DNA from: Larkinella humicola
GTDB lineage: Bacteria; Bacteroidota; Bacteroidia; Cytophagales; Spirosomataceae
Assembly: GCF_008727875.1 (NCBI RefSeq)
Contig: NZ_VTWS01000010.1
Coordinates: 62,001 to 126,000 of the forward strand
Reading direction: 5' to 3'
Length of the DNA: 64,000 nt
Every line of letters starts with the position of its first letter. The first letter of the stretch is position 1. Both the position numbers and the translations under genes were made by a program. Under the pieces are notes generated by a model that was not told the DNA's origin, did no database searches, and saw nothing but the letters and a program-made list of their open reading frames with translations. Below are positions 8,512 to 64,000 of the stretch, in pieces.

Positions 8512-8590
8512 TACGGTTTTCAGTTTACGGTTGGCTGGCTCGTTTTCCCAAATGCGCCAGCCAACCGTAAATCGTAAACTGAAAACCGTA
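8512..8590. repeat. Periodic-arm intergenic hairpin A (7-nt units)
   Basis: The left arm (8512-8539) and right arm (8556-8590) are identical in inverse orientation, except that the right arm carries one extra 7-base block (GATTTAC when read on the minus strand). The loop is 16 bases. The right arm reads as 7-nt units CCGTAAA, TCGTAAA, CTGAAAA, CCGTAAA. It lies between two minus-strand genes and its outer end is 8 bases from the M3 peptidase stop. It could act as an intergenic terminator or RNA stabiliser. Confidence 0.9.
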
Positions 8591-8598
8591 AACCAACT

Positions 8599-10731
8599 TT
8601 ATAAAACCTTCAGCAGGCCCCGGCGTCGGAGCAGCGGTTTGATGTCGGGTTCGGAACCCCGGAAATTTTTATAGAGCGTCATCGGTTCGTCGGTACCGCC
8701 CTTTTCGAGGACGTTTTTGCGGAACGACTGGGCGGATTTCTGATCGAATAATCCTTTTTGTTTGAATACTTCGAAGGCATCGGCATCCAAAACCGCCGAC
8801 CAGATGTAGCTGTAATAACCCGCCGAATAACCGCCCGCAAAAATGTGTTGAAAATACGTGCTCCGGTAGCGCGGAGGAATCTGGTCGATTAAACCGATTT
8901 TATCCATCGACTGCTTTTCGAAAGCCAGCACATCCGTCGGCACCTCGCCGGGTTTCAGCGTATGGTAATCCATGTCGAGCAGCGACGCGGCCAGGTATTC
9001 AGTCGTTTCAAAACCCTGGTTGAACAGACTGCTTTTGTTGATTTTCTCGATTAGCGCATCCGGAATCACCGCGCCGGTTTTGTAATGTTTGGCGTAGAGT
9101 TTCAGCATTTGCGATTCCTCCGACCAGTTTTCCATGATTTGCGACGGCAGTTCCACGAAGTCGCGTGGCACCGACGTTCCCGACAGACTGGCGTAGGTGA
9201 CGTTGGAAAGCAAACCGTGCAGGGCGTGGCCGAATTCGTGGAAAAACGTCCGGGTTTCCTCCAGACTGAGCAAGGCCGGGGCGTCGCCCGACGGGCGCGA
9301 GAAGTTGCAGACGATGGAAATCACCGGCGTGATTTTCTGGCCTTTTTCAACTTCCTGCCGCCGAAAACTGGTCATCCACGCCCCTCCGCGTTTGCTGGCG
9401 CGCGGGTGAAAATCCATATACAGAATCCCGATGTGCCGTCCGTCGGCTTCTTTCACTTCGTAGCTCTGAACTTCCTCCTGATAGATTGGTAAATCCGTCC
9501 GCCGTTCGAAACGCAAGCCATAGAGCCGCCCGGTGAGCATGAAAATGCCTTCGCGGACGTTTTCGAGCGAGAAATACGGTTTGAGCTGTTCACCATCGAG
9601 CGCGTATTTTTGTTTGCGGAGTTTTTCGGCATAATACCGCCAGTCCCAACTCGCCAGCTTTTCATTTTTGCCCTCTTTGTCCATCAGCGCCTGCAATTCG
9701 GCTGCCTCCTGTTTCGTAACGGGAACGGTTGCAGCCCAGAGTTGATTGAGCAGTTCGCTCACCTTGGCTGGCGTTGAAGCCATGCTTTCTTCCAGCACAA
9801 AAGCCGCGTGGTTTTCGTAGCCCAGCAACTGCGCTTTTTCGGCCCGGAGGTCCACCATTTTAGCCATCAGGGCTTTGTTGTCGCGCTCGTCGTTGTGATT
9901 GCCGCGTTCGAGATACGCCCGAAAAATCTGCTCGCGGAGCGCCCGGTTGTCGGCATATTGCAAAAACGGCATGATGCTCGGGTTTTGCAGGGTGAAAATC
10001 CACTTGCCCTGGGTGTTCCGCTTTTTGGCTTCGTTGGCAGCCGCTTCAACGAGCGAAGCGGGCAAACCGCTGAGGTCTTCCTTTTTGTCGATTACCAGCG
10101 TGTAGGCGTTGTTTTCGGCCAGCAGGTTCTGCCCAAATTTCAGGGTCAGGACCGAAAGCTCTTCATTGATTTTCCGCAGCCGTTCCTGTTTGTCGGCGGT
10201 CAAAGCGGCTCCGCCCCGCACGAAATTCTTGTACGTTTTTTCGAGCAACCGCTGCTGTTCGCCGGTGAGTTTAAGCTGGTTTCGCTGGTCGTAAACGGTT
10301 TTTACGCGCTTGAACAGGGCCGGATTCAGCGCAATATCGTCGCCGTTTTTCGCCAGTTTGGGCGCGATGGTCTGGGCAATTTTCTGAAGAGCCTCGCTGG
10401 TGTTGGCGTTGTTGAGGTTGAAAAATACCGTGCTCACCCGACTGAGCAGATCACCGCCCGCTTCCAGGGCTTCGATGGTGTTGGCAAAAGTGGGTGCCTG
10501 GGTCTGGCTGGTGATTTTCGCAATGTCAGCCGCCTGCTGTTTGATGCCTTCCTCAAAAGCCGGTTCGTAGTGTTCCGGCTTGATTTTGTCGAAGGCCGGT
10601 ACGCCAAAAGGTGTGGTATAGGCGGTGAAAAAAGGATTTTCCGCAATGGATTGGCCGTTCACTGGCGCGAGATCCGTCAAAAGCATGGTCGTTATCAGAA
10701 GTGTAAGCGTTGATTTCATCGAAGAACGCAT
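8599..10731 (-). CDS. dcp: M3 family metallopeptidase, peptidyl-dipeptidase Dcp-like
   Basis: 710-residue zinc peptidase of the thimet oligopeptidase/Dcp family. It carries the motif HEFGHALHG with His498, Glu499 and His502, and the third ligand Glu lies about 25-30 residues further (FVELPSQIMENW). The N-terminus has a signal peptide (MKSTLTLLITTMLLTDLAPVNGQS from the second Met), so it acts in the periplasm, where Dcp enzymes release C-terminal dipeptides from oligopeptides. The length fits the family. It has its own promoter at 10746-10777, with only about 8 bases between the predicted transcription start and the ATG. Confidence 0.93.
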   Translation of the reverse strand: MRSSMKSTLTLLITTMLLTDLAPVNGQSIAENPFFTAYTTPFGVPAFDKIKPEHYEPAFEEGIKQQAADIAKITSQTQAPTFANTIEALEAGGDLLSRVSTVFFNLNNANTSEALQKIAQTIAPKLAKNGDDIALNPALFKRVKTVYDQRNQLKLTGEQQRLLEKTYKNFVRGGAALTADKQERLRKINEELSVLTLKFGQNLLAENNAYTLVIDKKEDLSGLPASLVEAAANEAKKRNTQGKWIFTLQNPSIMPFLQYADNRALREQIFRAYLERGNHNDERDNKALMAKMVDLRAEKAQLLGYENHAAFVLEESMASTPAKVSELLNQLWAATVPVTKQEAAELQALMDKEGKNEKLASWDWRYYAEKLRKQKYALDGEQLKPYFSLENVREGIFMLTGRLYGLRFERRTDLPIYQEEVQSYEVKEADGRHIGILYMDFHPRASKRGGAWMTSFRRQEVEKGQKITPVISIVCNFSRPSGDAPALLSLEETRTFFHEFGHALHGLLSNVTYASLSGTSVPRDFVELPSQIMENWSEESQMLKLYAKHYKTGAVIPDALIEKINKSSLFNQGFETTEYLAASLLDMDYHTLKPGEVPTDVLAFEKQSMDKIGLIDQIPPRYRSTYFQHIFAGGYSAGYYSYIWSAVLDADAFEVFKQKGLFDQKSAQSFRKNVLEKGGTDEPMTLYKNFRGSEPDIKPLLRRRGLLKVL

Positions 10732-10745
10732 TGGTTGGGGTCACT

Positions 10746-10777
10746 CAAAACTACAGAATCGCCGTGCGAAAGCCAAA
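10746..10777 (-). promoter_or_regulatory. Bacteroidota primary-sigma promoter for the M3 peptidase
   Basis: Read on the minus strand: TTTG (10777-10774), 20 bases, then TAGTTTTG (10753-10746). This is an exact match to the TTTG-N19-21-TAnnTTTG form known for Bacteroidota RNA polymerase. The predicted start of transcription is near 10739 and the ATG is at 10731. Confidence 0.7.
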
Positions 10778-10877
10778 CGGACATCTTTGTCCGGCAGCGA
10801 ACAGCACCTGTCCGGCTTCGTACAGTTTGATTTCTGGAGAATGATTTTAATTCATTGATTATCAACATATTAAGATA

Positions 10878-10893
10878 TTGGCACGGCGTTTGG
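10878..10893 (+). promoter_or_regulatory. Possible sigma-54-type promoter
   Basis: TTGGCAC, 4 bases, then TTTGG. It has the invariant GG of the -24 box, and the second pair is at the right spacing (GG-N10-NN), but it is GG instead of the invariant GC. It lies 80 bases upstream of the small secreted protein gene at 10973. It is one base short of the consensus, so this is tentative. Confidence 0.35.
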
Positions 10894-10972
10894 AATACAA
10901 GTAACCGAACACGTAAGCAACACCTTTTGAATCATACCCAACAACAACAAATACATAAACGTAAACAACACC

Positions 10973-11359
10973 ATGTTCAATCTCCTGAGTAATCTGATCT
11001 GTACCGCGCTATTGAGCGCCCCGGTTTTGAGTGAACCCGCTACGCCCAGCGCACTGCCCTTTGGTGCCAGCGCCTATGTGACTTCCGAAAACAAGATTCG
11101 GGTATCCGTCGTAAAATCGGCCGCGGAGCCGGTGACGGTTCTGCTGCGCAACGACAAAAAAGAAATCATTTTTCAGGAAACGATTTCGAAGAAAGAATTG
11201 AAATACGCGGCCAAACTGGACATGAAAAATCTGGCTGATGGTGCCTACGAGCTGGAATTCAAGTCGGCTCAGGGCGCCATTCGCAAGCAAGTGAACGTGG
11301 CCACTCCGCCGGTTTCCACACCCGCCCGGTCGGTGGTTTTGAACACCCCCGCCGAGTAA
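10973..11359 (+). CDS. Small secreted protein of unknown function
   Basis: 128 residues. A signal peptide (MFNLLSNLICTALLSAPVLSEPA) precedes a short beta-rich domain (about 30-110) with strands such as KIRVSVVKSAAEPVTVLLRNDKKEIIFQETI and DGAYELEFKSAQGAIRKQVNV. This is the shape of the C-terminal folds (T9SS tails, DUF3244-like) that occur as free-standing small proteins in Cytophagales. I cannot assign a function. It has a long untranslated leader, its own terminator at 11383-11415, and a possible sigma-54 box upstream. Confidence 0.75.
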   Translation: MFNLLSNLICTALLSAPVLSEPATPSALPFGASAYVTSENKIRVSVVKSAAEPVTVLLRNDKKEIIFQETISKKELKYAAKLDMKNLADGAYELEFKSAQGAIRKQVNVATPPVSTPARSVVLNTPAE

Positions 11360-11382
11360 TACCGTAGAATTAGACAAACTGG

Positions 11383-11415
11383 AAAACCACCTCCGCACGG
11401 CAGAGGTGGTTTTTT
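11383..11415. terminator. Bidirectional intrinsic terminator
   Basis: An 11-bp stem AAAACCACCTC (11383-11393) / GAGGTGGTTTT (11403-11413) with a 9-base loop and two further T. It sits between the convergent genes ending at 11359 (+) and 11417 (-). Confidence 0.88.
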
Positions 11416-11416
11416 G

Positions 11417-12577
11417 TTATTGTTTTGCCGAAACGGCAATCATCCGGTTGAGTGTCAGAAAGCTGCCATCAGCGGTTTCCATTTCGGTGCGCTGGTTGCC
11501 GATCCAGAAACAGGCGTGGTATTTTCCGCCCAGTTCATACGTCCCGCTGTAATAGGGCGTATCCTTGCTTAAAGCCAGGTTTTGACAAAAAGCCCGCGTC
11601 GCTCCGTTGGGAACGGGCAGCAGGGTTTCGGTCACGTCGCCGGTTGGACTCACCCGCCAGACGACGGGCAAAAACCGGCGGTAATCGAGAATATTGAGGT
11701 GGAGGTGGCCCTGGCGGTCGGTTTGCATTTCGTGCAGCCGCTGCGATGCCGGGTCGACGGGCTGGCTTAGTTGAAACCGGGTGCCGTTTTTCCAGATGGT
11801 CGGGGTGGGCGCCGAGCGATCCCGGACGTCGTTCCGTTCACCAGCTATAAAAACACCCTGATCCGACGGCAGAATGTAAAATGAGAGTGATTTGACCGGT
11901 CGGTTGTCAATTTCCTGAAACCGGACCGAATCACGCCGATCGACCGTCCAGTGGCCCGGATGAACGACAAACGCGCCATTCTGTTCCAGCACCTGAACCC
12001 CGCCCACAAAGAGCTGGTCGTTGTGCAGAGCGAGGTTTCCAGTGCCAAGTTCTCCGCCTTCAACAGCCGTAGGAAATCCTTTGAGAACGATCATCTCAGG
12101 TGTCGAATTGCCTTTTATTTTCCAGAGAACCGGCTGTAAATCAATGCTTCCCAGCAAATACAGTGCGCCCTGAAAAAACTGGAGGTCGCGCAATCCGGCT
12201 TTGTCAAAGACCAGATGGTTGGGGAGAGGTAGGTCGATTTTGCGGCCGTTCTTCCAGTAGCACGGTTTCATCCGCTCGTCCGCCGGATCGACGTAATACC
12301 CGGCAATGTACAGGTCGTTGCCCTGCTTTTGCAGGCCGTAGCAGCCGGTTTCCTGCGCCAATCCCAGTTCCAGGCGGTGCATGTTGTCCTGTTCCCAGTA
12401 AACTGCTACGTAGCGACGGGCCTGCAGGTCGAGCAGTTGGCCGGTGGTATAAAGAACGACTGAATCTTTTTCGGCAAGGGGCGTGACGCGGTCGGTGGTC
12501 TGGCAACCGGCCATCAACAGGCCCGCCAGCCAGACCACCGTTCCGACCAGGATTCCGTAGTGAGGAAACGTATTCAT
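11417..12577 (-). CDS. Hypothetical lipoprotein with propeller-like repeats
   Basis: About 386 residues from the ATG at 12577; a longer in-frame extension to 12619 begins with a poor start and lacks signal-like sequence. The lipobox LLMAGC is near residue 25. The mature part is rich in short repeats of the type YIAGYYVD....PCYWKNGRKIDL and FVGGVQV...GHWTVDRR, which suggests a beta-propeller or YncE-like surface protein. No catalytic motif is visible. The gene diverges from the helicase gene, with only about 130 bases between the two start codons. Confidence 0.75.
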   Translation of the reverse strand: MNTFPHYGILVGTVVWLAGLLMAGCQTTDRVTPLAEKDSVVLYTTGQLLDLQARRYVAVYWEQDNMHRLELGLAQETGCYGLQKQGNDLYIAGYYVDPADERMKPCYWKNGRKIDLPLPNHLVFDKAGLRDLQFFQGALYLLGSIDLQPVLWKIKGNSTPEMIVLKGFPTAVEGGELGTGNLALHNDQLFVGGVQVLEQNGAFVVHPGHWTVDRRDSVRFQEIDNRPVKSLSFYILPSDQGVFIAGERNDVRDRSAPTPTIWKNGTRFQLSQPVDPASQRLHEMQTDRQGHLHLNILDYRRFLPVVWRVSPTGDVTETLLPVPNGATRAFCQNLALSKDTPYYSGTYELGGKYHACFWIGNQRTEMETADGSFLTLNRMIAVSAKQ

Positions 12578-12710
12578 CCAGTATCTGTTGTTTTTGGAAG
12601 ATGACTCAGGGGAAGTCAAAAGGGTTGGAACGGTTTTTCAGGAATATTCCCTTTACTTCGCACTTGCATTGGACATGACCAACCACCACCGGAGTCCAGC
12701 GTACACCACC

Positions 12711-13949
12711 ATGAAATTCGACGATTATTATATTGCCCCCGATATTAAGCGGAATCTGGAAGGGTTAGGCTTCAAAAAACCGACCGACATTCAGTTTAAA
12801 TCGATACCGCCGATTCTGAAGGGCGAAGACGTGCTGGCGATTGCCCAAACCGGCACCGGAAAAACGGCGGCTTTTGCCATTCCGGTCGTCAGTATGCTGC
12901 ATGAACGGAAAAAGCAGAAGCGGGCGGAGGGCATCAAGTGTCTGGTAATGGTGCCGACCCGCGAGCTGGCGTTGCAAATCGCCGGGGTGTTCGAGCAGAT
13001 TTCCCGGCACATGAACCTGAAAGTGTTTTGTGTTTTTGGTGGGGTGGAGCAGGGCCCGCAGATTGCGCAACTGGAAGCGGGCATCGACATTCTGATTGCG
13101 ACGCCGGGCCGGATGTTCGATCTGGTGAGCCAGGGCTACATCCGCTTGCAGCGGGTCGAAATCCTGATTCTGGACGAAGCCGATCACATGCTTGATCTGG
13201 GCTTTATCAAAGACATCCAGGATTTGATGAAATTCCTGCCCCGCAAGCGGCAAACGCTGTTTTTTTCGGCCACGATCAACGAGAAAATCAAGAAGTTAGC
13301 CTATTCGCTGGTGCACAATGCCATCCGGATTCAGATTTCGCCCAAAGATCCGGTGGCCAAAAACATCGACCATTCCGTGGCTTTTGTCGGGATGGACGAC
13401 AAGCGGTTTTTTCTGGAACGGCTGATTCAGGAACATCCCGACAGCAAAATTCTGGTATTTGTCCGGACGAAAGTCCGGGCAGAACGGGTGTTAAAGGCCC
13501 TGGAACGCGTTGGGATCAAGAGCGAAACCATTCACGGTGACAAGGAACAGAAAGACCGCTTGCAGGTGATGAATCAGTTCCGAAGCGGGGAGGTTAAGGT
13601 GCTGATTGCCACCGACATCAGTGCACGAGGCATCGACATCGCCAACGTGGATTACGTCGTCAATTATGACCTGCCCGAGCAACCCGAGAACTACGTTCAC
13701 CGCGTGGGCCGGACGGGTCGGGGAACCCAGAAAGGTCAGGCGTTCTCGTTTTGCAGCCCCGAAGAAAAACCGATCCTCGACGAAATTGAAACGTTTCTGG
13801 ACAAACCCATCCGCGTCGCCCAGATCGACCAGATCGACTACCAGGAAACCGTCGATGCCAGCAAAGGCGCGCAGTTTGACCTGAAAGCCTTGATGAAGGA
13901 AGCGGAGGAACTGCAGTTGGGGCGGAAGAAGCGGAAAAAGAAGAAGTAA
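12711..13949 (+). CDS. rhlE: DEAD-box ATP-dependent RNA helicase, RhlE-like
   Basis: 412 residues from ATG 12711; the in-frame stretch upstream is not conserved sequence. All DEAD-box motifs are present: Q motif (GFKKPTDIQ, 21-29), motif I AQTGTGKT (45-52), PTREL (82-86), TPGR (131-134), DEAD (155-158), SAT in FFSATI, and in the second RecA domain ARGIDIANV and HRVGRTGRG. A short basic tail (GRKKRKKKK) follows, as in RhlE-type helicases that remodel rRNA or assist mRNA decay. It is cytoplasmic. The poor -7-like box TACTTCGC upstream has no clear -33 partner. Confidence 0.93.
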   Translation: MKFDDYYIAPDIKRNLEGLGFKKPTDIQFKSIPPILKGEDVLAIAQTGTGKTAAFAIPVVSMLHERKKQKRAEGIKCLVMVPTRELALQIAGVFEQISRHMNLKVFCVFGGVEQGPQIAQLEAGIDILIATPGRMFDLVSQGYIRLQRVEILILDEADHMLDLGFIKDIQDLMKFLPRKRQTLFFSATINEKIKKLAYSLVHNAIRIQISPKDPVAKNIDHSVAFVGMDDKRFFLERLIQEHPDSKILVFVRTKVRAERVLKALERVGIKSETIHGDKEQKDRLQVMNQFRSGEVKVLIATDISARGIDIANVDYVVNYDLPEQPENYVHRVGRTGRGTQKGQAFSFCSPEEKPILDEIETFLDKPIRVAQIDQIDYQETVDASKGAQFDLKALMKEAEELQLGRKKRKKKK

Positions 13950-13965
13950 AGACTTTTCCAAGTCT
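13950..13965. terminator. Weak hairpin between convergent genes
   Basis: AGACTT / AAGTCT with a TTCC loop, directly after the helicase stop and abutting the DenD stop. The stem is only 6 bp with no strong T-run, so terminator function is uncertain. Confidence 0.35.
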
Positions 13966-25145: not shown

Positions 25146-25254
25146 AAGAGAGTTCTATCGCAAAGTTGAGCGGAGTAAATCAGAGTTCAGCAGAGTTTTT
25201 TTTCTCTGAAAAACTCTGCTGAACTCCGCTCAACTCTGCGATAGAATTTCTCTT
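25146..25254. repeat. Periodic-arm intergenic hairpin B (10-nt units)
   Basis: Left arm 25146-25200, loop of 8 bases, right arm 25209-25254. The right arm reads AACTCTGCTG, AACTCCGCTC, AACTCTGCGA, i.e. 10-nt units. The left arm has one extra 10-base unit (AAATCAGAGT at about 25175-25184) and one single-base indel; otherwise the arms match closely. The right arm overlaps the stop codon of the ABC-peptidase gene, and the GH9 gene lies downstream on the same strand. Confidence 0.9.
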
Positions 25255-28883: not shown

Positions 28884-29008
28884 AAGAGTTAGGAATTAAG
28901 AGTTAAGAGTGAAGAGTTATGAGTTAAGACGGGGCTGCTTTTGCGTTGGCTAACGCGTTGTATTTTTAATTTTTAACTCTTCACTCTTAACTCATCACTC
29001 CCAACTCC
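28884..29008. repeat. Periodic-arm intergenic hairpin C (7-nt units)
   Basis: Left arm from 28884 reads AGAGTTA, GGAATTA, AGAGTTA, AGAGTGA, AGAGTTA, TGAGTTA. The right arm to 29008 reads AACTCTT, CACTCTT, AACTCAT, CACTCCC, AACTCCT. The core pairs perfectly over 20 bp. A second small hairpin (GCGTT/AACGC) lies in the loop at 28943-28956. The left arm begins two bases from the permease start codon, and the right arm runs into the last codons of the ATPase gene. Confidence 0.9.
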
Positions 29009-31481: not shown

Positions 31482-31567
31482 TTAATTATGGATGATGAAC
31501 GATGAACGATGAATTGAATAATGTCAAACATTCATCATCCATCGTTCATCCTTCATCATTCATCAAC
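31481..31567. repeat. Periodic-arm intergenic hairpin D (7-nt units)
   Basis: Left arm 31481-31519, loop about 10 bases, right arm 31530-31567 (imperfect pairing). The right arm units are CATCCAT, CGTTCAT, CCTTCAT, CATTCAT; the left arm has GATGATG, AACGATG, AACGATG. It fills the whole gap from the last base of the upstream stop codon to one base before the downstream ATG. Confidence 0.88.
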
Positions 31568-33131: not shown

Positions 33132-33135
33132 TTTG

Positions 33136-33220
33136 ATGCCCCTAAATCCCCTGAAGGACGGTCGGCCGCTGCATCCGAAGAATTCCGCGTCCAAGTCTCC
33201 TTCAGGGAATTTAGGGGCAT
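33136..33220. repeat. Periodic-arm intergenic hairpin E (8-nt units)
   Basis: Arms 33136-33158 and 33198-33220 pair over 23 bp with one mismatch. The left arm contains the near-repeat CCCCTAAA, TCCCCTGA (8-nt spacing). It starts 5 bases after the oxidase stop. Confidence 0.88.
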
Positions 33221-33295
33221 GGATGTAAGACCAGGTTATCTGAGAAAATAAGAAATATCGAATATTAAATCTCGACTATTGAATAACGATCTACC

Positions 33296-35439: not shown

Positions 35440-36030
35440 TTAGGAAGCATACCGCTCCAGTTCTGCTTTCAACCTTTTGATAAGACCGATCATCGGCTGA
35501 GCGGTATTCATTGCCCTGCACATGACAACCCCGCCTTCGACAGCGGCAACCATATGGAAAGCATAACCAACCGGATCAAGTTTAGTCGAAAATTCCCCAT
35601 TCTCAATGCCTTGTCTCAGGATAGCAACCGCCAACTCCTGCCCCCTGCCGAAGACAGCCGCCACCTTTTTTTTAATAATCGGGTGCGTATCGTCCGATTC
35701 TACGGCCATGTTGAAAATGGGGCAACCCCCACGGATGTACGTATTGAGGGGATCGCTGTACAAGTCAAGAAAAGCGAAGATTTTGGCCTTGGCGGTATCA
35801 GCCTGCCCAATCGTAGCCAAAATTTTTTCCGTCATTTTTGAGAGCAGCAGGTCAATGACCTGAACTGAAAGGTCTTCCTTGTTCTCAAAATGGCCATACA
35901 AACACCCTTTGGCTACTTTGGTGGCAGCAAGCACGTCGTCAATGTGAACACCGGCGACCCCTCGTTCATTGAACAGTGGCGCTGCGGTTTCCAGAATAAA
36001 TTGCTTGGTTCGTTCAGCTTTCGTAAGCAT
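35440..36030 (-). CDS. TetR/AcrR family transcriptional regulator
   Basis: 196-residue repressor with the TetR HTH (GVAGVHIDDVLAATKVAKGCLYGHFENKEDLS, about 24-55) and a helical ligand domain. The start codon lies inside a 46-base perfect palindrome, consistent with autorepression by steric block. The oxidoreductase gene downstream carries the same operator core. The likely signal is a reactive electrophile or quinone, by analogy with NemR-like systems. A -7 box TATTTTTG lies in the palindrome's right arm on the minus strand, so the mRNA may be nearly leaderless. Confidence 0.92.
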   Translation of the reverse strand: MLTKAERTKQFILETAAPLFNERGVAGVHIDDVLAATKVAKGCLYGHFENKEDLSVQVIDLLLSKMTEKILATIGQADTAKAKIFAFLDLYSDPLNTYIRGGCPIFNMAVESDDTHPIIKKKVAAVFGRGQELAVAILRQGIENGEFSTKLDPVGYAFHMVAAVEGGVVMCRAMNTAQPMIGLIKRLKAELERYAS

Positions 36031-36071
36031 GATGCAAAAATAGACTTTTTAGTCTATTTTTGCATCATGCT
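36026..36071. promoter_or_regulatory. Perfect palindromic operator at the TetR start codon
   Basis: 21-bp arms with no mismatch (36026-36046 and 36051-36071) around TTTT. The core 36041-36056 is TAGACTTTTTAGTCTA. The arms also contain the CAT that is the tetR start codon on the minus strand and a TATTTTTG -7-like box on either strand. Confidence 0.8.
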
Positions 36072-36861: not shown

Positions 36862-36980
36862 ATTGCGTATTTGATTACAGGTTGGTAGTCGTCCCTCTCC
36901 GTTTGCAAGAAAAGGAACCTTTGCCGGTTTTCCAGAGATGGGAAGATTTCTTTTCCAGGGTTTATTGGAATGGATTGAGA

Positions 36981-37074
36981 ATCATCAATGCAATATGATA
37001 AACGCTACATGTAAAAGTGACTGATTGCGGAATACATTTGCACTGAGCGTTTATCATTTTGTTGCATTGATGAT
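36981..37074. repeat. Periodic-arm intergenic hairpin F (family with G)
   Basis: Left arm 36981-37006, right arm 37046-37074 (three extra bases in the right arm). It lies between divergent starts, the only one of the nine to do so. The left flank (ATGATAAACGCTAC then ATGTAAAAGTG, 36995-37019) is very similar to hairpin G at 48831. Confidence 0.82.
37033..37040 (+). promoter_or_regulatory. Possible -7 box for the sulfatase
   Basis: TACATTTG, an exact TAnnTTTG, within the loop of hairpin F and about 47 bases before the ATG. No -33 TTTG at the normal spacing, so support is partial. Confidence 0.35.
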
Positions 37075-44324: not shown

Positions 44325-44475
44325 ATTGAGTGATTGAGTGGCGGGGCCGCCCATGCGGTGGGCGATTGAGTGATTTTTTTCACGATTACCGAGATGTATA
44401 AACTCATTCAATTGCTTCATGTCCCTGCACTCAATCGCTCATTCACTCATCGCACCGGCGACCCGGTCACTCATT
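44325..44475. repeat. Periodic-arm intergenic hairpin H (8-nt units, with mini-hairpin inserts)
   Basis: The left arm has ATTGAGTG at 44325, 44333 and 44365, with a 24-base GC-rich insert (44341-44364). The right arm has CACTCAAT, CGCTCATT, CACTCATC (44428-44451), a 16-base insert (44452-44467), then CACTCATT (44468-44475). Both inserts fold into their own small stems and have lengths that are multiples of 8. It lies between SusC and SusD, six bases after the SusC stop. Confidence 0.85.
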
Positions 44476-45955: not shown

Positions 45956-47422
45956 ATGGAGTCCAACGATAATAAACCCGAACTCTCCTCTCTATTTAAC
46001 CTGAACCGCCGGAAATTCCTGCGTTCTGCGGCTTTAGGCACCACCGCCCTTTCTGGTCTTGGCTTAACAAATGGGGAAGCTGCTGAAGCAAAAGACGCGA
46101 CCAAATTTTCGGAACCTTCCCGCGATCTGCCCATCAAAGGGGACGTCGATGTGATCGTTTGCGGAGGTGGTCCCGCCGGAATTGCTGCCGCCATCGCTGC
46201 CGCCCGCGCCGGTGCCCGAACGCAGTTGCTCGAAATCCACGGCTGTCTGGGGGGCGTCTGGACGGCGGGTTTACTGACGTACATTTTTGATTTCAACAAA
46301 CCGGGTCTGACGAAAGAGATCATCCAAAAACTCGACGAACGCGACGCCCGGCGCAACAAGGTTCCGGATCAGTTTGTCTATGCGCCGGATGATATGAAGG
46401 TGCTGCTCGAAGAAATGTGCGCCGAAGCGGGCGTAAAATTCCTGTTGCACACCCGCGTGGCGGCCGCTTACAAAGACAAAAACCAGGTGACGACCGTTAT
46501 CACCGAATCGAAATCGGGGCGGCAGGCCTGGAAGGCGAAAGTGTTTATCGATGCCACCGGCGACGGTGATCTGGGCGCTCAGGCCGGCAATAGCTGGGAA
46601 ATCGGGCGAGGGGGGGATACCTGTCCGTGTCAACCATTGACCCTCAATACATTGGCGGTTGTGAAAGATGCCGCTGCGCTGAAACCGTACATTTCGTTTT
46701 ACCAGGACGACAACGGCAAAGCCAACATGGACTGGCACGTGAAAGCGACGAAGGAATTTATGAAAGAGATCAACCGCGCCGGTATTACGCCTTCCTACGG
46801 GATGCCTACGCTGTTCCTGATTCGCGATAATCTGGTAATGGTGATGGTTAATCACGAATACAACATCAAGGCCTTCGATGCCGATGAAATTACCGAAGCC
46901 ACCGTGCGGGCGCGGGCGGAGGTGTACAGCATTGTCCGCGGTCTGAACAAACTCGGCGGGCCGTGGGAAGGGATTCAGATTGTGGCAACCCCCGAGCAGA
47001 TCGGGATTCGGGATGGTCGCCGGATTCACGGTCGGTATACGGTTACCAAAGAGGATCTGGCGATGGGTGCCCGGCACCAAGATGCCGTCGTTCGGCCCAC
47101 GTTCGGCGTTGATATTCACGCTTCCGACCGCAAAACCAACGAAAAGGAAACCATTTCGCGGGGCGGTATTAAAATGATTCCGTATGATATTCCGTTGCGG
47201 GCGTTGATTGCCAAGGATGTCGACGGGTTGATGATGGCCGGTCGCTGCATCAGTGGTGATTTTACGGCCCACGCCAGCTACCGCGTCACCGGCAATGCCG
47301 TGGCAATGGGCGAGGCCGCCGGGGTGGTGGCTGCCCTGGCCGCCAAAAGCAAACGATTACCCCACGAGGTGCAATGGAGTGAAGCCGTGGCGGTTTTGAC
47401 CAAACTCGGGATGCGCGGCTGA
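45956..47422 (+). CDS. Tat-exported FAD-dependent oxidoreductase
   Basis: 488 residues with Tat motif NRRKFLRSAALGTTALSGLG and the FAD dinucleotide site VIVCGGGPAGIAAAIAAARAG (GGGPAG at 70-75). It matches the FAD_oxidored (PF12831) group, with IDATGDGDLGAQAG and a late block DGLMMAGRCISGDFTAHASYRVTGNAVAMGEAAG. Its stop overlaps the start of the next gene by one base. Substrate unknown; the locus suggests a sugar or sugar acid. Confidence 0.9.
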   Translation: MESNDNKPELSSLFNLNRRKFLRSAALGTTALSGLGLTNGEAAEAKDATKFSEPSRDLPIKGDVDVIVCGGGPAGIAAAIAAARAGARTQLLEIHGCLGGVWTAGLLTYIFDFNKPGLTKEIIQKLDERDARRNKVPDQFVYAPDDMKVLLEEMCAEAGVKFLLHTRVAAAYKDKNQVTTVITESKSGRQAWKAKVFIDATGDGDLGAQAGNSWEIGRGGDTCPCQPLTLNTLAVVKDAAALKPYISFYQDDNGKANMDWHVKATKEFMKEINRAGITPSYGMPTLFLIRDNLVMVMVNHEYNIKAFDADEITEATVRARAEVYSIVRGLNKLGGPWEGIQIVATPEQIGIRDGRRIHGRYTVTKEDLAMGARHQDAVVRPTFGVDIHASDRKTNEKETISRGGIKMIPYDIPLRALIAKDVDGLMMAGRCISGDFTAHASYRVTGNAVAMGEAAGVVAALAAKSKRLPHEVQWSEAVAVLTKLGMRG

Positions 47423-48825
47423 TGAAAACCGCCCTGCTGCTGTGGCTGTTGCTCCTTGCCCGTGCGCAGGCCGAGGTGGTTTTGCCTTCGATTCTGGCGT
47501 CGGACATGGTGTTGCAACAGGAAACCGACGTAACAATCTGGGGCTGGGCGAATCCGACCGAAAAAATAACCGTTACGGCCAGTTGGGATAACCGACTGGT
47601 GAGCGTCACCGGTGCGGCCGATGCGACCTGGAAAATTCGCCTGCGAACGCCGAAAAGCGGTGGGCCGTATTCGATCACGATCAAGGGAAACAATACGGTT
47701 TTGCTGACCAATCTTCTGATCGGCGAAGTCTGGCTGTGTTCGGGGCAGTCGAATATGGCGCTGACTGCGGGCGGAGGGGTGAAGGATGCCCGGGCTGAAT
47801 TGCCGAATGCCCACAACCCCAACATGCGGTTTTTTAAGATGAACCGTCGGGCGGCCGCTTCGCCCCAGAACGACGTGGGCGGAAACTGGTCGATTTGTGA
47901 TTCGGTCAGTTTGAAGCGGTTTAGTGCCGTCGGATACTTTTTCGGGAAGAAACTGCATGCCGAACTTGGCGTTCCGATTGGCCTGATTGATATGTCGTGG
48001 GGCGGCTCCAAGATGGATACGTGGGTTCCTGAAGCAATCGTCAATCTGTATCCCGAAACCCGCCATTCGGGCCGGACGATGGTCAAAACGCCCTGGGCAC
48101 CGAACGTTCCGGGCGTTTTGTTCAACGGCATGGTCGCGCCCATTACGCCGTTCGCCATTGCCGGGGTGATCTGGTACCAGGGCGAGTCGAACCGTCATTA
48201 TGCGCCGGCGTATTGCCAGTTGACGCGTTTGCTCGTGGAGAGCTGGCGCGGACTCTGGCAGGCCGATTTTCCGTTTTATTTTGTCCAACTGGCTCCGTAT
48301 CGCTACGGCGGAACGTTTGAAACCGCGTTGATTCGGGAAAATCAGACGAGGGCGATGGCTATTCCCAAAACCGGCATGGTGGTTACGACCGATCTTGTCG
48401 ACAATTTGGATGACATTCATCCGGCGTATAAAAAAAAAGTCGGGAATCGGCTGGCTAATTGGGCGTTGGCTGACACCTATCATCAGAAAATTGATTCGTA
48501 CAAAAGTCCACAATACCGTTCCCTGCGCATCGACGGAAACCATATTTGGCTGACTTTCGACCATGCGCCCAACGGCCTGATTGCCAGAACCGGGGTGCTG
48601 ACGGAATTTGAAATCGCCGGAGCCGATCAAGTTTTCAGGAAAGCACGGGCCCGGATTAAACACAACACCGTTGAAGTTTGGGCCGATAGCGTCGAGAATC
48701 CCGTCGCCGTCCGGTTTGCGTTTCGGGATGCGCCCGAACCCACGTTATTCAGCGCAGAAGGCTTGCCGGTTATTCCGTTTCGGACGGATGATTGGGATTT
48801 GGGGCTGGTTAAAAAGGAATGGTGA
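47422..48825 (+). CDS. Sialate O-acetylesterase-like SGNH hydrolase
   Basis: 467 residues with signal peptide. SGNH motif I is GEVWLCSGQSNM with nucleophile Ser110. The distal Asp/His motif is DDIHPAYKKK. The N-terminus is a beta domain (SDMVLQQETDVTIWGWANP) usual in this family. It removes O-acetyl groups from sialic acid or other acetylated glycans. Translation is probably coupled to the upstream oxidoreductase, since TGA and ATG overlap by one base. Confidence 0.9.
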   Translation: MKTALLLWLLLLARAQAEVVLPSILASDMVLQQETDVTIWGWANPTEKITVTASWDNRLVSVTGAADATWKIRLRTPKSGGPYSITIKGNNTVLLTNLLIGEVWLCSGQSNMALTAGGGVKDARAELPNAHNPNMRFFKMNRRAAASPQNDVGGNWSICDSVSLKRFSAVGYFFGKKLHAELGVPIGLIDMSWGGSKMDTWVPEAIVNLYPETRHSGRTMVKTPWAPNVPGVLFNGMVAPITPFAIAGVIWYQGESNRHYAPAYCQLTRLLVESWRGLWQADFPFYFVQLAPYRYGGTFETALIRENQTRAMAIPKTGMVVTTDLVDNLDDIHPAYKKKVGNRLANWALADTYHQKIDSYKSPQYRSLRIDGNHIWLTFDHAPNGLIARTGVLTEFEIAGADQVFRKARARIKHNTVEVWADSVENPVAVRFAFRDAPEPTLFSAEGLPVIPFRTDDWDLGLVKKEW

Positions 48826-48830
48826 ATTAT

Positions 48831-48901
48831 AAATGATGAACGCCAAATGTAAAAGTGTCCCCAGCTTGCACTTGCACTTTTACATTTGGCGTTTATCATT
48901 T
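48831..48901. repeat. Periodic-arm intergenic hairpin G (7-nt units)
   Basis: Arms 48831-48857 and 48875-48901 pair with one mismatch over 25 bp. The left arm reads AAATGAT, GAACGCC, AAATGTA, AAAGTGT; the right arm continues in 7-nt units (ATTTGGC, GTTTATC, ATTTTAC, ATTTTTC). The stop of the upstream esterase is five bases before the left arm. Confidence 0.9.
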
Positions 48902-49050
48902 TACATTTTTCATTCCCTTTTCTTTTCTTCCTTTTTTTGCTAAACTTTTTCTAAAAAAATCCCAACATCCACTACGTATATTCGGCTTTGAATTTGTCTT
49001 TATTCCAAAGGGACTAAAAAACCGGAAAATAGAAGTTTAAATCGTCGTGT

Positions 49051-57156: not shown

Positions 57157-57163
57157 ACGGTTT

Positions 57164-58522: not shown

Positions 58523-58645
58523 TAGTTGTAAAAAAGGTTTAACCGGTTCCCATGGAAAGAGAACCCGTCTTGAAAAATTAAAAAACCGCTACATTTTGAA
58601 ATATTTGGAGATTTGTTACAATTTTGGTAATAAATCGCCACGCAA
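58523..58645. other. Intergenic region before sigma factor of module 3
   Basis: 123 AT-rich bases. A weak stem GGTTC / GAACC (58543-58566) follows the module 2 stop. A TTACAATTTTGG sequence near 58616-58627 resembles a degenerate -7 region of the downstream sigma gene. Nothing else recognised. Confidence 0.4.
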
Positions 58646-59221: not shown

Positions 59222-59326
59222 GCGGTATTCGTAAAACCTGCAAAAAAATCTCAAAAAAATCGCGTTTAGCCTTAGGGGTTTTTCGGTGATATTCGTCTAT
59301 GCCTTTTGAACGAACCACTCAGCCCG

Positions 59327-60355
59327 ATGGATAGCGCAAAATACCAGGAATTGCTGGCTAAATACCTGAACGGCGACTGCTCCGACGAAGAGCGGGCGCT
59401 GATCGACCAGTGGTATGCGTCATTGGATGCAGAGGTGGACTTGCCGGCCACAGCCGATGAAAAGAACCAACTGCTGGCCCGAAACTGGCAGGATCTGAGC
59501 CAGCGGACGCTGAAATCCAAACCGGCCCGTCCACTTCATTTCCGGCCTTACTGGGCAGCCGCTGCGGCTTTGGCCGTATTGTTGGGACTCGGCTGGTATT
59601 TTCAGATTTGGAAAACGACGAGCGTACCGACACAAGCGTTCGAAGTTTCGGATGCAAAACCGTCCTTTGTTGAGAAGACCAACACCTCGGCCCTTCCCAA
59701 GCGAATCACCCTGAGTGACAAGAGCATAGTAACCCTGGAGCCCGGCAGCAAAATCCGGTATCCGGCCACGTTCACCGGCCAGAACCGGGAAGTTACCCTG
59801 ACGGGCGAAGCATTTTTCGAGGTGCAGAAAAATCCGCACCAGCCGTTTCTGGTGTATTCAAATGATTTGATAACCAAAGTGTTAGGAACCAGTTTCCGGA
59901 TTAAGGCCAATGCGGCCAACCGCAACATTACGGTTTCGGTGCGGACGGGGCGCGTGTCGGTGTATTCCCCCACACTGGCGACGGCGGCTAAAACCAAATC
60001 CGACCCCGAAACCATTGGCGTTGTCCTGACGCCCAATCAGCAGGTGACCTACCTGGATCTGGAGCACCGGCTGGTGAAAACGCTGGTGGAAAAACCGGTC
60101 GTGCTGGTTCAGAAAGCCGAACTCCCCACCTTTACGTTTCAGAACGCGCCGATTTCGGTGCTGATGACGGCCATCGAAAAAACGTACGGCGTCGATGTCG
60201 TGTACGACGAGGAGGTGATGAGTAACTGCTTCATTACAACCTCGCTGGAGCAGGAAGACCTATACGACAAACTAAACATCATCTGTAAACTGCTGGGAGC
60301 CAGCTACAAAGTGATCGACGCCCAGATCGTCATCTCCGGTCCGGGTTGCCAGTAA
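59327..60355 (+). CDS. FecR family anti-sigma factor (module 3)
   Basis: 342 residues from ATG 59327; a TTG at 59306 is seven codons earlier but is less likely. Membrane segment FRPYWAAAAALAVLLGLGWYF near 71-91, FecR domain (KRITLSDKSIVTLEPGSKIRYP; REVTLTGEAFFEV; GTSFRI) and DUF4974-like C-terminus (FQNAPISVLMTAIEKTYGVDVVYDEEVMSNC). It is close in sequence to the module 1 FecR. Confidence 0.92.
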   Translation: MDSAKYQELLAKYLNGDCSDEERALIDQWYASLDAEVDLPATADEKNQLLARNWQDLSQRTLKSKPARPLHFRPYWAAAAALAVLLGLGWYFQIWKTTSVPTQAFEVSDAKPSFVEKTNTSALPKRITLSDKSIVTLEPGSKIRYPATFTGQNREVTLTGEAFFEVQKNPHQPFLVYSNDLITKVLGTSFRIKANAANRNITVSVRTGRVSVYSPTLATAAKTKSDPETIGVVLTPNQQVTYLDLEHRLVKTLVEKPVVLVQKAELPTFTFQNAPISVLMTAIEKTYGVDVVYDEEVMSNCFITTSLEQEDLYDKLNIICKLLGASYKVIDAQIVISGPGCQ

Positions 60356-60408
60356 CCAAACCGTTTCACACTTAACCCGAAAGGAATGATGTAATTCTAA
60401 CGCAACTC

Positions 60409-60448
60409 AAAAAAAGAAGGTCGGTGATGGGTCCAAGCATCACCGACC
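60409..60448 (+). promoter_or_regulatory. A-run plus hairpin between fecR and susC (module 3)
   Basis: A7 at 60409-60415, then GGTCGGTGATG (60419-60429) / CATCACCGACC (60438-60448), an 11-bp perfect stem with an 8-base loop. It is 101 bases before the SusC ATG and matches the position and form of the module 1 element, though the sequence differs. Confidence 0.5.
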
Positions 60449-60549
60449 GGATCAAGCTCCAGCCGCCGGATCGTGTTCCGACGCATCTTTTCAGATGTGC
60501 AGGGCTTCTTTGTCTTTGCCTAAATCCTCAAACAAAAACATCCAAAGGT

Positions 60550-63500
60550 ATGAAATTACCTCGAATCTCTCACGCATTCGTCCTTACCCTTATGCGTATC
60601 ACGTTTACCCAACTGATTTGTACGTTTCTGGTCGTGGGGGTGACCTACGCCAAAACCGTCCGGGCGCAGGCGCTGCTGGAACAACCCGTTACGCTGTCGA
60701 TTGAGAACAAGGAAATTAGCGTCGTTTTATCCCGAATCGAAAAGGTGGCGAAGGTGACGTTTTCGTACATCCCGCAGCAGATTCAGGCCGACCGCCGGGT
60801 GTCGCTCAACGTCACCAACCAGCCTTTGTCCAGCGTACTGGATCAGCTTTTTCGCAATGCCGCCGTGTCGTATGAAGTCGTGGGCCGGAAGCAGATTCTG
60901 CTCAGCAAACCGCCGGTTTCGCCCGCCATCAATCCCGGGTTTTCACCGAAAAGTACCCAGTCCGAAACGGAAAAACCGCTCGACCGGGCGATTACCGGAA
61001 AAGTGACCGACGAAAAAGGCGAAGGCTTGCCGGGCGTGAGTGTGGTGGTCAAAAACACGACGCGCGGAACCAGCACCGACGCCGATGGGCGGTTTAAACT
61101 CAACGTGCCGAATGAGGCCACCACCCTGGTTTTTTCGTTCGTGGGTTATTTAAGCCAGGAAGTTGCGATTGGAAACCGCTCGGATCTGGCGGTTGATCTG
61201 AAAGTCGATACCAAAAGCCTGGAGGAAGTGGTGGTGGTGGGCTACGGAACCGTCAAAAAAAGCGATCTGACCGGTTCGCTCTCGCAGGTCAAAGCCAAGG
61301 AACTGAACGCTTTTCCGAACAGCAATGTGTTGCAGGCGTTGTCGGGCCGGGCGGCCGGGGTGCAGGTTTTGCAGAATACCGGCGCGCCCGGAGCCGGTGT
61401 CAGCGTTCGGATTCGGGGCACCAATTCCATTCAGGGCAGCAACGAGCCGCTGTATGTCGTGGACGGTTTTCCGATTTCGGGCAGCAACCCGACGGCCCTC
61501 AACAACTCCGATATTGAAAGCATCGAGATTCTGAAAGATGCCTCAGCCACGGCCATTTATGGTTCGCGGGGTGCCAACGGCGTCGTGATCATCACCACCA
61601 AACGCGGAAAAACCGGCAAAACCAACGTCGATTTCGAAACCAGTTACACCAGCCAGAAGCTGATCAAAAAACTGGATCTGATGAACGCGAAAGAATACGC
61701 AATGTTCTACAACGAACAGGCTCTCAACGATAAATTATCCCCTTACTTCACACAGGCGCAGATCGACGGTTTTGGCGAGGGGTTCGACTGGCAGGATCTG
61801 GTTTTCCAGAAAGCACCCATGATCACCTCGGCGCTGAACATCAGCGGGGGCAATGAGAAAACCCAGTTTTCGGTGTCGGGCAGTGTGTTCAACCAGGATG
61901 GTATTGTCAAAGGCAGCGATTACAAACGGTATTCGCTGCGCGCTAATGTCAATCACGAGATCAGCAAGAAGTTCAGTTTCAACCTCTCCAGCACACTGAC
62001 CCGCCTGAACACCGGGCGCAAAGACAGTGGGGGAGGGAGCCGCGGCAACTCGATGATTTCGGGGGCGATTTCGGCTCCGCCGACGCTGACACCCTACAAG
62101 GATGACGGCACGTATCGCGTGTTGGCCACTTCGTATCCCTTTGTCGCAACGGATTTGATCAATCCGCTGAATTTTATCAACGAACAATCCGACCAGATCA
62201 GGGCGAACCTGGCGCTGGTGAATGCGGCTTTGATTTTTCGCCCCATTCCCGATCTGACCATCAAGATTGCGGGCGGTATCGAAAACCGCGATGACCGCAC
62301 GGATTCGTACCGCACCCGCAATTTTGTCAACTCGGCGGGTGTTGCCAATGTCAGTACGAATCAGATTACCAGCCTGTTGAGTGAAAATACGATCAGCTAC
62401 ACCAAAAGCTTCCAAAAACATTCCGTGTCGGCCGTTGCCGGGTTTACCTATCAGGATTTTGTCAGTACGTCCCTGTCTGCGGGCGGGAACGGTTTTCTGA
62501 GCGATATTTTTGGCACCTATGACCTGAGTGCCTCCATCACCCCGGGTATTCCCAATTCCGGGTATTCCAAGTCGGTTTTGCTCTCGTATCTGGCGCGCGT
62601 CAATTACGGTTTCGATGGGAAGTATTTACTGACGGCCAGCTTTCGGCGCGATGGTTCGTCCAAATACAGCGAAGGCAACAAGTGGGGCTTTTTTCCGTCG
62701 GCGGCTTTTGCCTGGCGTGTCTCCAACGAGGATTTCCTGAAAGAAAATACATTCATCTCGGACCTGAAATTCCGGGCGAGTTGGGGCCTGACCGGTAGCC
62801 AGGCTATTGGGGCGTATGCCACACTAAACCAGCTTTCGTCGGGCAAAACCGTGTATGACAATGCGTTATACAACACGTTTGCGCCCGGCACGCGCCTGCC
62901 AGGAAACCTGAAATGGGAAACGACGGAACAAAAAGACGTCGGAATCGATCTGGGGATTCTGAAAAACCGGGTGACGTTTACGCTCGATTACTACATTAAA
63001 AACACCCGAGATTTGCTCAATACTGTCGTCCTGCCGTCGTCGCTGGGCTTTACCAGCACGATTCAGAACGTGGGACAGGTGCAGAACAAGGGCTTCGAAC
63101 TGGGCGTCGATTCGCGGATTCTTACCGGGACGTTCAGGTGGGATCTGAATGCCAACTTTTCCCTGAACCGCAACAAAGTGGTGAAGTTGCAGGGGGGCGA
63201 GGACATTCTGGGCGGAACCGTCAGTGTTGTTGCGATCAACGATGTGACGAACATCCTGCGCGAAGGCCAACCCATCGGGCGGTACTGGGGCTATGTGGAA
63301 GAGGGCTACGATGACAAAGGCAAAATCAAGTTCAAGGATCTCGACGGTGACGGGGCCATCAGCATCAAGGACAAAACCTACATCGGCGACCCGAATCCCA
63401 CGTTTACGTTCGGCGTCAACTCGGCCATGAGCTACAAAAACTTCGATCTGACCATTTTCCTGCAAGGTGTTCAGGGCAACGACCTGTTCAACGCCAGCGC

Positions 63501-63897
63501 GATTGTCAATACGATGGACTACGGGTTTGGCCTCAACATGCCGAAGGAGGTTTTTTATAACCACTGGTCGCCCACCAATCCGAATGCAAAATACCCGATC
63601 ATCAGCAATTCCAGCCGGACGAGTGTGTCGAACCGCTACATCGAAGACGGTTCCTACCTGCGGCTGAAGACCATCCAACTCGCCTACAACCTGCCGCTGC
63701 AAACCTGGGGTGTCAACTGGATTCGGAACGCGCAATTGTATGCCAGCGGACAGAATTTGCTGACACTGACCAATTACTCGTGGTGGGACCCCGAAGTGAA
63801 CTCCAACGGCGGAGCCAACTCGACCAACCAGGGCTTTGATTTCAACAGTTATCCATCCTCAAAATCCGTCACCGTCGGCGTGCGGGTAGGGTTTTAA
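60550..63897 (+). CDS. SusC/RagA-type TonB-dependent transporter (module 3)
   Basis: 1115 residues from ATG 60550; an in-frame GTG at 60424 lies inside the hairpin region and is rejected. STN domain (about 45-115, EQPVTLSIENKEISVVLSRIEKV), carboxypeptidase-D-like domain, plug (LEEVVVVGYGTVKKSDLTGSLSQV) and barrel ending SVTVGVRVGF. It is highly similar to the module 1 SusC over most of its length. A SusD partner should follow beyond the right edge. Confidence 0.95.
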   Translation: MKLPRISHAFVLTLMRITFTQLICTFLVVGVTYAKTVRAQALLEQPVTLSIENKEISVVLSRIEKVAKVTFSYIPQQIQADRRVSLNVTNQPLSSVLDQLFRNAAVSYEVVGRKQILLSKPPVSPAINPGFSPKSTQSETEKPLDRAITGKVTDEKGEGLPGVSVVVKNTTRGTSTDADGRFKLNVPNEATTLVFSFVGYLSQEVAIGNRSDLAVDLKVDTKSLEEVVVVGYGTVKKSDLTGSLSQVKAKELNAFPNSNVLQALSGRAAGVQVLQNTGAPGAGVSVRIRGTNSIQGSNEPLYVVDGFPISGSNPTALNNSDIESIEILKDASATAIYGSRGANGVVIITTKRGKTGKTNVDFETSYTSQKLIKKLDLMNAKEYAMFYNEQALNDKLSPYFTQAQIDGFGEGFDWQDLVFQKAPMITSALNISGGNEKTQFSVSGSVFNQDGIVKGSDYKRYSLRANVNHEISKKFSFNLSSTLTRLNTGRKDSGGGSRGNSMISGAISAPPTLTPYKDDGTYRVLATSYPFVATDLINPLNFINEQSDQIRANLALVNAALIFRPIPDLTIKIAGGIENRDDRTDSYRTRNFVNSAGVANVSTNQITSLLSENTISYTKSFQKHSVSAVAGFTYQDFVSTSLSAGGNGFLSDIFGTYDLSASITPGIPNSGYSKSVLLSYLARVNYGFDGKYLLTASFRRDGSSKYSEGNKWGFFPSAAFAWRVSNEDFLKENTFISDLKFRASWGLTGSQAIGAYATLNQLSSGKTVYDNALYNTFAPGTRLPGNLKWETTEQKDVGIDLGILKNRVTFTLDYYIKNTRDLLNTVVLPSSLGFTSTIQNVGQVQNKGFELGVDSRILTGTFRWDLNANFSLNRNKVVKLQGGEDILGGTVSVVAINDVTNILREGQPIGRYWGYVEEGYDDKGKIKFKDLDGDGAISIKDKTYIGDPNPTFTFGVNSAMSYKNFDLTIFLQGVQGNDLFNASAIVNTMDYGFGLNMPKEVFYNHWSPTNPNAKYPIISNSSRTSVSNRYIEDGSYLRLKTIQLAYNLPLQTWGVNWIRNAQLYASGQNLLTLTNYSWWDPEVNSNGGANSTNQGFDFNSYPSSKSVTVGVRVGF

Positions 63898-63901
63898 AAT
63901 T

Positions 63902-64000
63902 ATTGAGTGATTGAGCGAATGAGTAATTGAGTGAAAAGATCAGCACTATTGTTAGCCTCCAGGCTCGCCCAATTGTTTCACTCAATCACTCAATTACTCA
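63902..64000. repeat. Periodic-arm intergenic hairpin I (8-nt units, runs off the edge)
   Basis: The left arm has ATTGAGTG, ATTGAGCG, AATGAGTA, ATTGAGTG (63902-63933). The right arm from about 63977 has CACTCAAT, CACTCAAT and TACTCA to the last base. It begins four bases after the SusC stop and is of the same family as hairpin H after the module 1 SusC. Confidence 0.85.

Follow-up and report, generated by a model that had tools for sequence, protein, structure and literature searches.

Degenerate heptamers of the GGGAATC and GGGGA(C/T)T types lie in the intergenic gaps of Xanthomonas and Nostoc, close to stop codons, and two Xanthomonas genomes harbor 70 and 75 convergent site pairs that are capable of forming stem-loops (PMC4692102). 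In the available text of that report, the length and sequence of the repeats vary between near species, and their type (single or inverted pair) is usually kept. As far as that text goes, these convergent pairs are the closest precedent for the elements considered here: nine long intergenic inverted repeats, hairpins A–I, in a 64,000-nt window (C1:62001-126000) of the 7.86 Mb genome of Larkinella humicola, and a population of similar hairpins sampled from the same genome. Both systems feature a 7-nt unit (59 of 89 periodic hairpins in Larkinella), a G-rich strand that comes first (77 of 89), and proximity to stop codons (64 of 81). In contrast to the single G-rich, quadruplex-capable family per genome described for Xanthomonas, Larkinella has about a dozen families, most without GGG tracts; by eye, the main units GTTTACGG, GAGTTAA, GATGAAC, and ATGTAAA contain no GGG. 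Inner cores and near-perfect arms further set the Larkinella hairpins apart, as do concerted arm change and loop inversion, neither of which is described in the available text of PMC4692102.

Template-switch mutation has published footprints, namely compensatory changes, inverted loops, and insertions in stems (PMC8794818). The hairpins attributed to this process share with those of Larkinella perfect stems, paired changes, loop inversions, and insertions in stem halves. However, in the accessible part of that report they belong to rRNA genes (including bacterial ones) and microRNA loci, whereas the present ones are intergenic, occur in one bacterial genus, and have arms made of tandem units.

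Other described repeats are more distant, again within the available text of each source. Repetitive extragenic palindromic (REP) sequences and their associated transposases (RAYTs) also form many families of dispersed intergenic palindromes, but REP stems are 5–13 bp with a GTAG or CGTC tag outside the pairing (PMC3733652); the median arm here is 31 nt, there is no such tag, and CGTC lies within the paired inner stem GCGTCAGCC. The TAACTGA heptamers of Beggiatoaceae, Cyanobacteria, and some Bacteroidetes are likewise intergenic arrays, yet they are direct repeats (1 indirect versus 169 direct sets), located mostly before start codons in the main genome described (PMC4679880). BrickBuilt, a miniature inverted-repeat transposable element (MITE) of Porphyromonas gingivalis, is intergenic, internally tandem, and from the same phylum; it differs by its 23-nt minisatellite units, its terminal inverted repeats outside the tandem array, and its single family (PMC4596501). 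Inverted repeats are over-represented in gaps generally (PMC4060949). By the tests made, the Larkinella hairpins are not REPs, MITEs, or plain terminators. A search of titles and abstract openings, with subscription journals mostly beyond reach, returned no concerted tandem-arm hairpins at gene ends in Bacteroidota. The account favored here, with moderate confidence, is that these are 3′-end RNA hairpins with palindromy maintained by template switching within the hairpin; their function and spread are what we infer.

Abundance and gene-end position of the hairpins

All nine inverted repeats were found at the positions originally claimed, and the population is larger than the original prediction held. 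The excess over shuffled gaps, a test set beforehand, was measured in 679 kb of the genome, the window among them, where 341 gaps reach 40 nt or more; the inverted repeats counted there have arms no shorter than 20 nt, called periodic at an autocorrelation of at least 0.5 at 6–12 nt. This sample contains 91 long intergenic inverted repeats, the mean over 20 dinucleotide shuffles being 0.55, and 64 with periodic arms, for which the shuffled mean is 0.35. Coding sequence (84.5 kb) contains neither kind. The automatic list includes six of the nine window hairpins, with D (in a gap of less than 40 nt by its called start), F, and G falling below the cut-offs. A later 959-kb set, larger than the 679 kb to which the shuffles apply, yields 149 inverted repeats whose arms are 18 nt or longer. 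Of these, 89 are periodic, which by extrapolation corresponds to approximately 700 periodic hairpins genome-wide.

Among the 89, the period is 7 nt in 59, 9 in 12, 10 in 8, 8 in 6, 11 in 2, and 12 in 2. The two arms of a hairpin resemble each other more than its units do in 87 cases, and the arms are perfect in 28. A hand-made motif list places 17 hairpins in the GTTTACGG family, 17 in the AATGTAAAA family, 10 in GAGTTAA, 6 in a CAGAGTT 10-mer family, and the others in nine smaller groups of 1–4, leaving 12 unassigned. There are thus about a dozen dispersed arm families, and 76 of the 89 hairpins match another sampled locus. Many hairpins also harbor an inner core. Stems or loops resembling GGCTGACGC are combined with GTTTACGG, GAGTTAA, and GATGAAC arms; therefore, arms and core are modular. 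In G122, a genome of another genus in the same taxonomic family, similar 7/8-nt arms surround a different core, GCTCCGC/GCGGAGC.

The hairpins are strongly oriented. G exceeds C in the left arm of 77 of the 89 (the reverse in 11, equality in 1), compared to 31 of the 60 other inverted repeats, and the right arms are C-rich. As Rho sites these right arms are unlikely, since a 7-nt spacing does not seem to fit such sites. Across nine Larkinella genomes, two cores have absolute polarity: 159 places carry GGCTGACGC...GCGTCAGCC and 176 carry ATGTAAAAG...CTTTTACAT, and neither is ever found in the opposite polarity. G001, G002, and G006 lack both cores, and G003 lacks the second.

Genes were called with a simple open reading frame caller that sets starts early. 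Of the periodic hairpins, 81 have a stop codon on at least one side; their median distance to the nearest stop is 4 nt, and 64 are no farther than 15 nt from it, a count that averaged 46 and never exceeded 55 when positions within the same gaps were drawn at random 200 times. Periodic hairpins occupy 30 of 89 convergent, 51 of 279 co-directional, and 8 of 114 divergent gaps (Fisher p = 1.4e-6 for convergent versus divergent), and 43 of the 51 in co-directional gaps are closer to the stop than to the start. On the transcript strand of co-directional gaps, G–U pairs outnumber A–C mismatches 49 to 28 (p = 0.022); the corresponding counts in convergent gaps are 21 and 18. It is from their position and this weak G–U bias that we infer an action of the hairpins as RNA. 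An RNA-processing device, one of three explanations originally offered, is a possible role, position and G–U bias being what speaks for the RNA level. With less certainty than the mutational steps discussed below, a transcript hairpin acting at gene ends, in 3′-end formation, in stability, or in setting expression within operons, would keep these sequences where they are. No Rfam family reaches its gathering score in the window. A reading of the hairpins as stop-codon traps, in which 7-, 8-, and 10-nt units provide stops in all frames, was dropped because the left-arm units of the GTTTACGG family lack a stop (by eye) and the period is 9 in 12 of the 89.

Turnover and concerted change between species

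Two close Larkinella genomes, G007 and G004, were compared at orthologous gaps, along with G008 and G005, which provide only 3 and 1 periodic rows. Although the flanks have median identities of 93.6% (G007) and 93.2% (G004), the hairpin regions have median identities of 0.69 in G007 (45 rows) and 0.59 in G004 (33 rows), versus 0.90 (70 gaps) and 0.87 (57 gaps) for hairpin-free gaps of 60–220 nt (p = 3.5e-5 and 3.1e-4, respectively). The loci thus turn over, as opposed to carrying identical conserved sequence. In G007, the arm family is kept in 28 rows, replaced by another in 10, and missing in 7 (5 empty sites, 2 without a hairpin). In G004, it is kept in 15 and replaced in 12, with 3 empty sites and 3 rows without a hairpin, two of the latter having similar sequence. 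These are counts of rows, in which hairpin 114 appears twice in G007 and in G004 through a second anchoring on a paralogous gap, and replacement is defined by a threshold, such that hairpin 121 in G007, for example, remains a 10-mer. Hairpin 86 has replaced arms around a retained core, gctgacgcat. To replace an arm family takes an insertion, ectopic conversion, or recombination with a different lineage; at locus I, the G004 type resembles that of G001.

Pairing is kept during this turnover. Pairwise comparison of 36 alignable ortholog rows (29 loci, 1187 base pairs) finds both sides changed in 39 base pairs where 7.6 are expected; 42 of the 78 G007 and G004 rows were excluded for having no hairpin or a region identity below 0.66. 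Changes from one Watson–Crick pair to another number 31 versus 2.5 expected, and shifting the partner by 1–10 nt reduces the paired count from 39 to 3–15. Seventeen of the 31 are transversions, which no G–U step can bridge, and 14 are transitions.

Segments between the arms also invert. Among 53 rows with loops of 6–60 nt, 16 loops match forward, 7 are flipped (10–22 nt), 2 are ambiguous, and 28 have no significant match. For whole hairpins, the inverted fit to the ortholog is better in 7 of 65 rows, the forward fit in 28, and 30 are ties; in the 26 rows with an identity of at least 0.75, the counts are 4 inverted (window hairpin B among them), 17 forward, and 5 ties. Hairpins 17, 80, 85, and 138 are inverted as wholes. 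The clearest flip is that of hairpin 85, with a 10-nt loop that is exactly reverse-complemented; its remaining four differences amount to two paired changes. In hairpin 141, G004 has 16 extra GC-rich nucleotides at mirror positions of both arms, plus a flipped loop, and hairpin 104 of L. humicola itself carries a related GC-rich block at mirror positions of both arms. Paired changes, loop inversions, and mirrored inserts are known footprints of template switching.

GC-rich blocks of approximately 16–23 nt (GGGGCCGCCCG...GCGG-like, or GGTCGGCCGCTGCC) occur in one or both arms of several families (e.g., window 44341-44363, G004e 44992, and C11b 21458). Patterns devised after these blocks had been seen hit 12 places in the sequence scanned, 8 of them in hairpin regions (by eye), with two of the 8 representing one orthologous locus. 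Such blocks are possibly a tiny mobile element that favors hairpins.

Origin and maintenance of the hairpins

In the mechanism considered most likely, the replicating strand would fold back, and the polymerase would take the other arm as its template and rewrite the partner. Such a switch would change the two arms in concert and could invert whatever lies between them. Slippage would alter the number of units, and, less certainly, families would reach other loci via some copying route. Together, slippage in units, arm-to-arm template switching, and occasional replacement from outside the hairpin account for the data, the last of these requiring such a copying route. Of the three explanations in the original prediction, slippage and template switching is the one best backed by comparative data.

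Several observations weigh against this account or limit it. Single-sided changes (112) outnumber paired ones (39); therefore, template switching is not the sole process. The G007 and G004 rows at one locus are not independent. Template switching does not itself predict fixed polarity, and the small families are not all of single polarity (3 versus 1 for CGAATAT, 5 versus 1 for the CAGAGTT 10-mer). Family replacement, in 10 of 45 G007 and 12 of 33 G004 rows, is impossible by copying within one hairpin. At the RNA level, the G–U bias is weak, with non-periodic co-directional repeats at 31 versus 25; the next start lies within 30 nt in 25 of the 51 co-directional cases, as judged with starts called early; and a T-rich tail (at least 6 T in 10 nt) follows only 18 of 111 hairpin ends. 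Given the last two observations, termination is not an obvious role, and plain termination is doubtful.

The strongest rival, rated at somewhat less than an even chance, treats the hairpins as REP- or MITE-like mobile elements, with the 3′ end as their target and species differences as fresh insertions, and it may be combined with template switching. The matches between loci (76 of 89), the sites left empty in 5 of 45 G007 rows and 3 of 33 G004 rows, the replacement of families at otherwise intact loci, the absence of the two cores from three genomes, and the absolute polarity of those cores are what such elements would be expected to leave. New insertions do not, however, explain why the arm family is kept in 43 of 78 rows, many with paired changes, and replacement in an occupied gap would need a hot spot. 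Alignments of empty and filled sites, inspected by eye, revealed no clear target-site duplication, with flanks partly rearranged such that small ones could be missed. Seven matches to Y1_Tnp were found, and their flanks of approximately 1.5 kb contain neither a periodic 7/8/10-nt hairpin nor a main arm tandem; single GGCTGACG 8-mers are present in the flanks of three, and one (L024) is flanked by a hairpin from the CCCCTAAATCCCC family, that of window hairpin E. The proposal of a mobile or templated repeat is thereby partly supported, by dispersed families and some empty sites, but neither a clear target-site duplication nor a Y1 transposase link was found. Near a Y1 transposase match, an inverted pair of long tandem arrays with longer, CGACGCGACCGAGGG-like units lies at L022 2149-2505.

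Selection for RNA pairing alone, in which one-arm mutations are followed by singly selected compensating ones in the other arm, is unlikely. The 3′-end position and the G–U excess on the transcript strand of co-directional gaps suit it, as do the single-sided changes and the 14 transitions. Nevertheless, such selection inverts neither loops (7 of 53 rows) nor whole hairpins (17, 80, 85, and 138), does not put the same GC-rich block at mirror positions of both arms, and has no wobble step for the 17 transversions.

Ordinary intrinsic terminators lengthened by slippage are equally improbable. They would fit the position after stop codons and in convergent gaps, and T-rich tails, though few, are commoner at periodic hairpins than at non-periodic repeats (18 of 111 versus 2 of 76). 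Yet 93 of the 111 ends have no such tail, and intrinsic termination is therefore rejected as the whole explanation; no more than 30 nt separate the hairpin from the next start in the 25 of 51 co-directional cases noted above; and hairpin G stands between a SusC-type and a SusD gene, which usually form one operon. Inversion by a site-specific recombinase, as in phase-variable promoters, is very improbable as the cause of the flips: inverted arms do flank the inverted segment in several orthologs, but the 10–22-nt loops are shorter than the segments that recombinases are known to invert, no site is common to the arm families, and paired arm changes and mirrored inserts are left without explanation.

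A broader version of the template-switching account is held only tentatively. It would see a replicating population of self-perfecting palindromes with arms rewritten by template switching, a unit length set by the replication machinery, and arms and cores exchanged as modules. In these genomes, most long RNA structure at gene ends would then arise and persist through a mutational process rather than pair-by-pair selection, perhaps also in other phyla with their own units.

The window hairpins and their relatives elsewhere

A window protein agrees with the genus Larkinella: the FAD-dependent oxidoreductase (Pfam) encoded at 45956-47422 is 98% identical to that of Larkinella sp. C7, 97% to L. 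punicea, 92% to L. terrae, and 91% to L. rosea. Eight of the nine hairpins occupy co-directional gaps as claimed, the exception being F in a divergent gap. RNA folding of A–H gives stabilities far above those of their own shuffles (z = −5.6 to −12.5). The arms of the nine were described as mostly periodic, which holds for A, B, C, D, and I, where Tandem Repeats Finder lists short tandem units, for H (autocorrelation of 0.53–0.57 at 7 nt), and, by eye, for G (ATTGAGTG units); E differs (best period 9–10), and F is weakly periodic. That they mostly share no sequence was only partly right, as a script places six in recurring families (A, B, C, E, H, and I) and the eye places D, F, and G. That they are one phenomenon is borne out by the common architecture, the inner cores shared across arm families, the G-rich left arm, and the 3′-end position, once E is excluded.

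Hairpin A (8503–8593) has GTTTACGG-type 7-nt arms and a GGCTGGC-like inner stem, 5 nt past the stop of the minus-strand gene on its right (8599-10731). Hairpin B (25146–25246) is built of CAGAGTT-type 10-nt units, and its G007 ortholog fits at 0.82 inverted versus 0.65 forward. Hairpin C (28884–29007) has GAGTTAA 7-nt arms; G007, G008, and G005 keep the family with a different unit order. Hairpin D (31484–31563) has GATGAAC 7-nt arms, the same gap in G007 (flanks 95% identical) harbors a GAGTTAA-type hairpin, and G008 and G005 have AATGAACAATG-type hairpins.

Hairpin E (33133–33222) is a CCCCTAAATCCCCTGAAGG palindrome of a separate dispersed family outside the set, and the orthologous site in G007 is empty. 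The CCCCTAAATCCCCTAAAGGGGACTT palindrome family represented here and at L024 121-196 is dispersed in Larkinella, with one copy near a Y1 transposase match. The gene at 33296-34291 matches a Hint module, with a weaker C-terminal pretoxin-HINT match below cut-off. Hairpin F (36975–37070) pairs more weakly, has ATGTAAAAGTG in its left arm as in H (by eye), and is kept in G007. The hairpin at 36026-36071, with 21 perfect base pairs and a 4-nt loop, has arms that are not periodic.

Hairpins G (44325–44450) and I (63902–64000) are alike by eye, with ATTGAGTG 8-nt arms, and each comes after a gene for a SusC-type TonB receptor; G is in turn followed by a SusD gene. The script assigns I to a GAGTGA 8-mer family. 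A GC-rich block with GGGGCCGCCC (44341–44363, forward strand) is present only in the left arm of G, and the same gap in G004 has AATGAGTGAATGATAG-type arms. Hairpin I, after the second SusC-type gene, reaches 64003 in the joined contig, beyond the window end. One SusC-type protein of the window has 120 matches in this genome and 104–130 in eight congeners. Hairpin H (48811–48921) has a AATGTAAAAGTG core and ATGATGAACGCC arms of the AATGTAAAA family; it is 0.99 identical in G004 and shortened in G007, and in G008 and G005 the gap is approximately 2.9 kb with terminal ATTGACC-like repeats.

Periodic repeats number 8 in 28 gaps at four Larkinella loci, 3 in 12 in Spirosoma, 2 in 19 in Dyadobacter, 1 in 26 in Runella, and none in 37 at five other Bacteroidota loci. 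Eight other genomes of the taxonomic family, sampled at 6–60 kb, include five with clear 7/8-nt hairpins (G037, G053, G081, G108, and G122), while of four members of the order (20–40 kb each), three have none and one has a single unlike hairpin. Of 118 genomes in the order, 9 have a GAGTTAA tandem; its two orientations are similarly frequent only in this genome (22 and 21) and G122 (33 and 40). At 64 mostly verrucomicrobial loci, 368 gaps contain 12 periodic repeats, of which, by eye, only those of L071, L087, L121, and L126 resemble the Larkinella hairpins. At L071 3247, L121 13647, and L126 14249, in Chthoniobacter flavus and two lake metagenome-assembled genomes (Verrucomicrobia, Opitutae), the 7-nt arms are made of different units (GAGAGTT, GAGTATG). 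This kind of hairpin may span phyla.

How long, perfect RNA stems originate and how their pairing is kept is an old question, and the template-switch answer, in the sources available, rests on rRNA and microRNA loci. Covariation in hairpins such as these is, by itself, no proof of structural selection. In one bacterial genus, gene ends now provide many hairpins that change fast, and its near species serve as before-and-after snapshots. These snapshots show paired changes, inversions, mirrored inserts, and replaced arms, and the process is testable directly in named strains.

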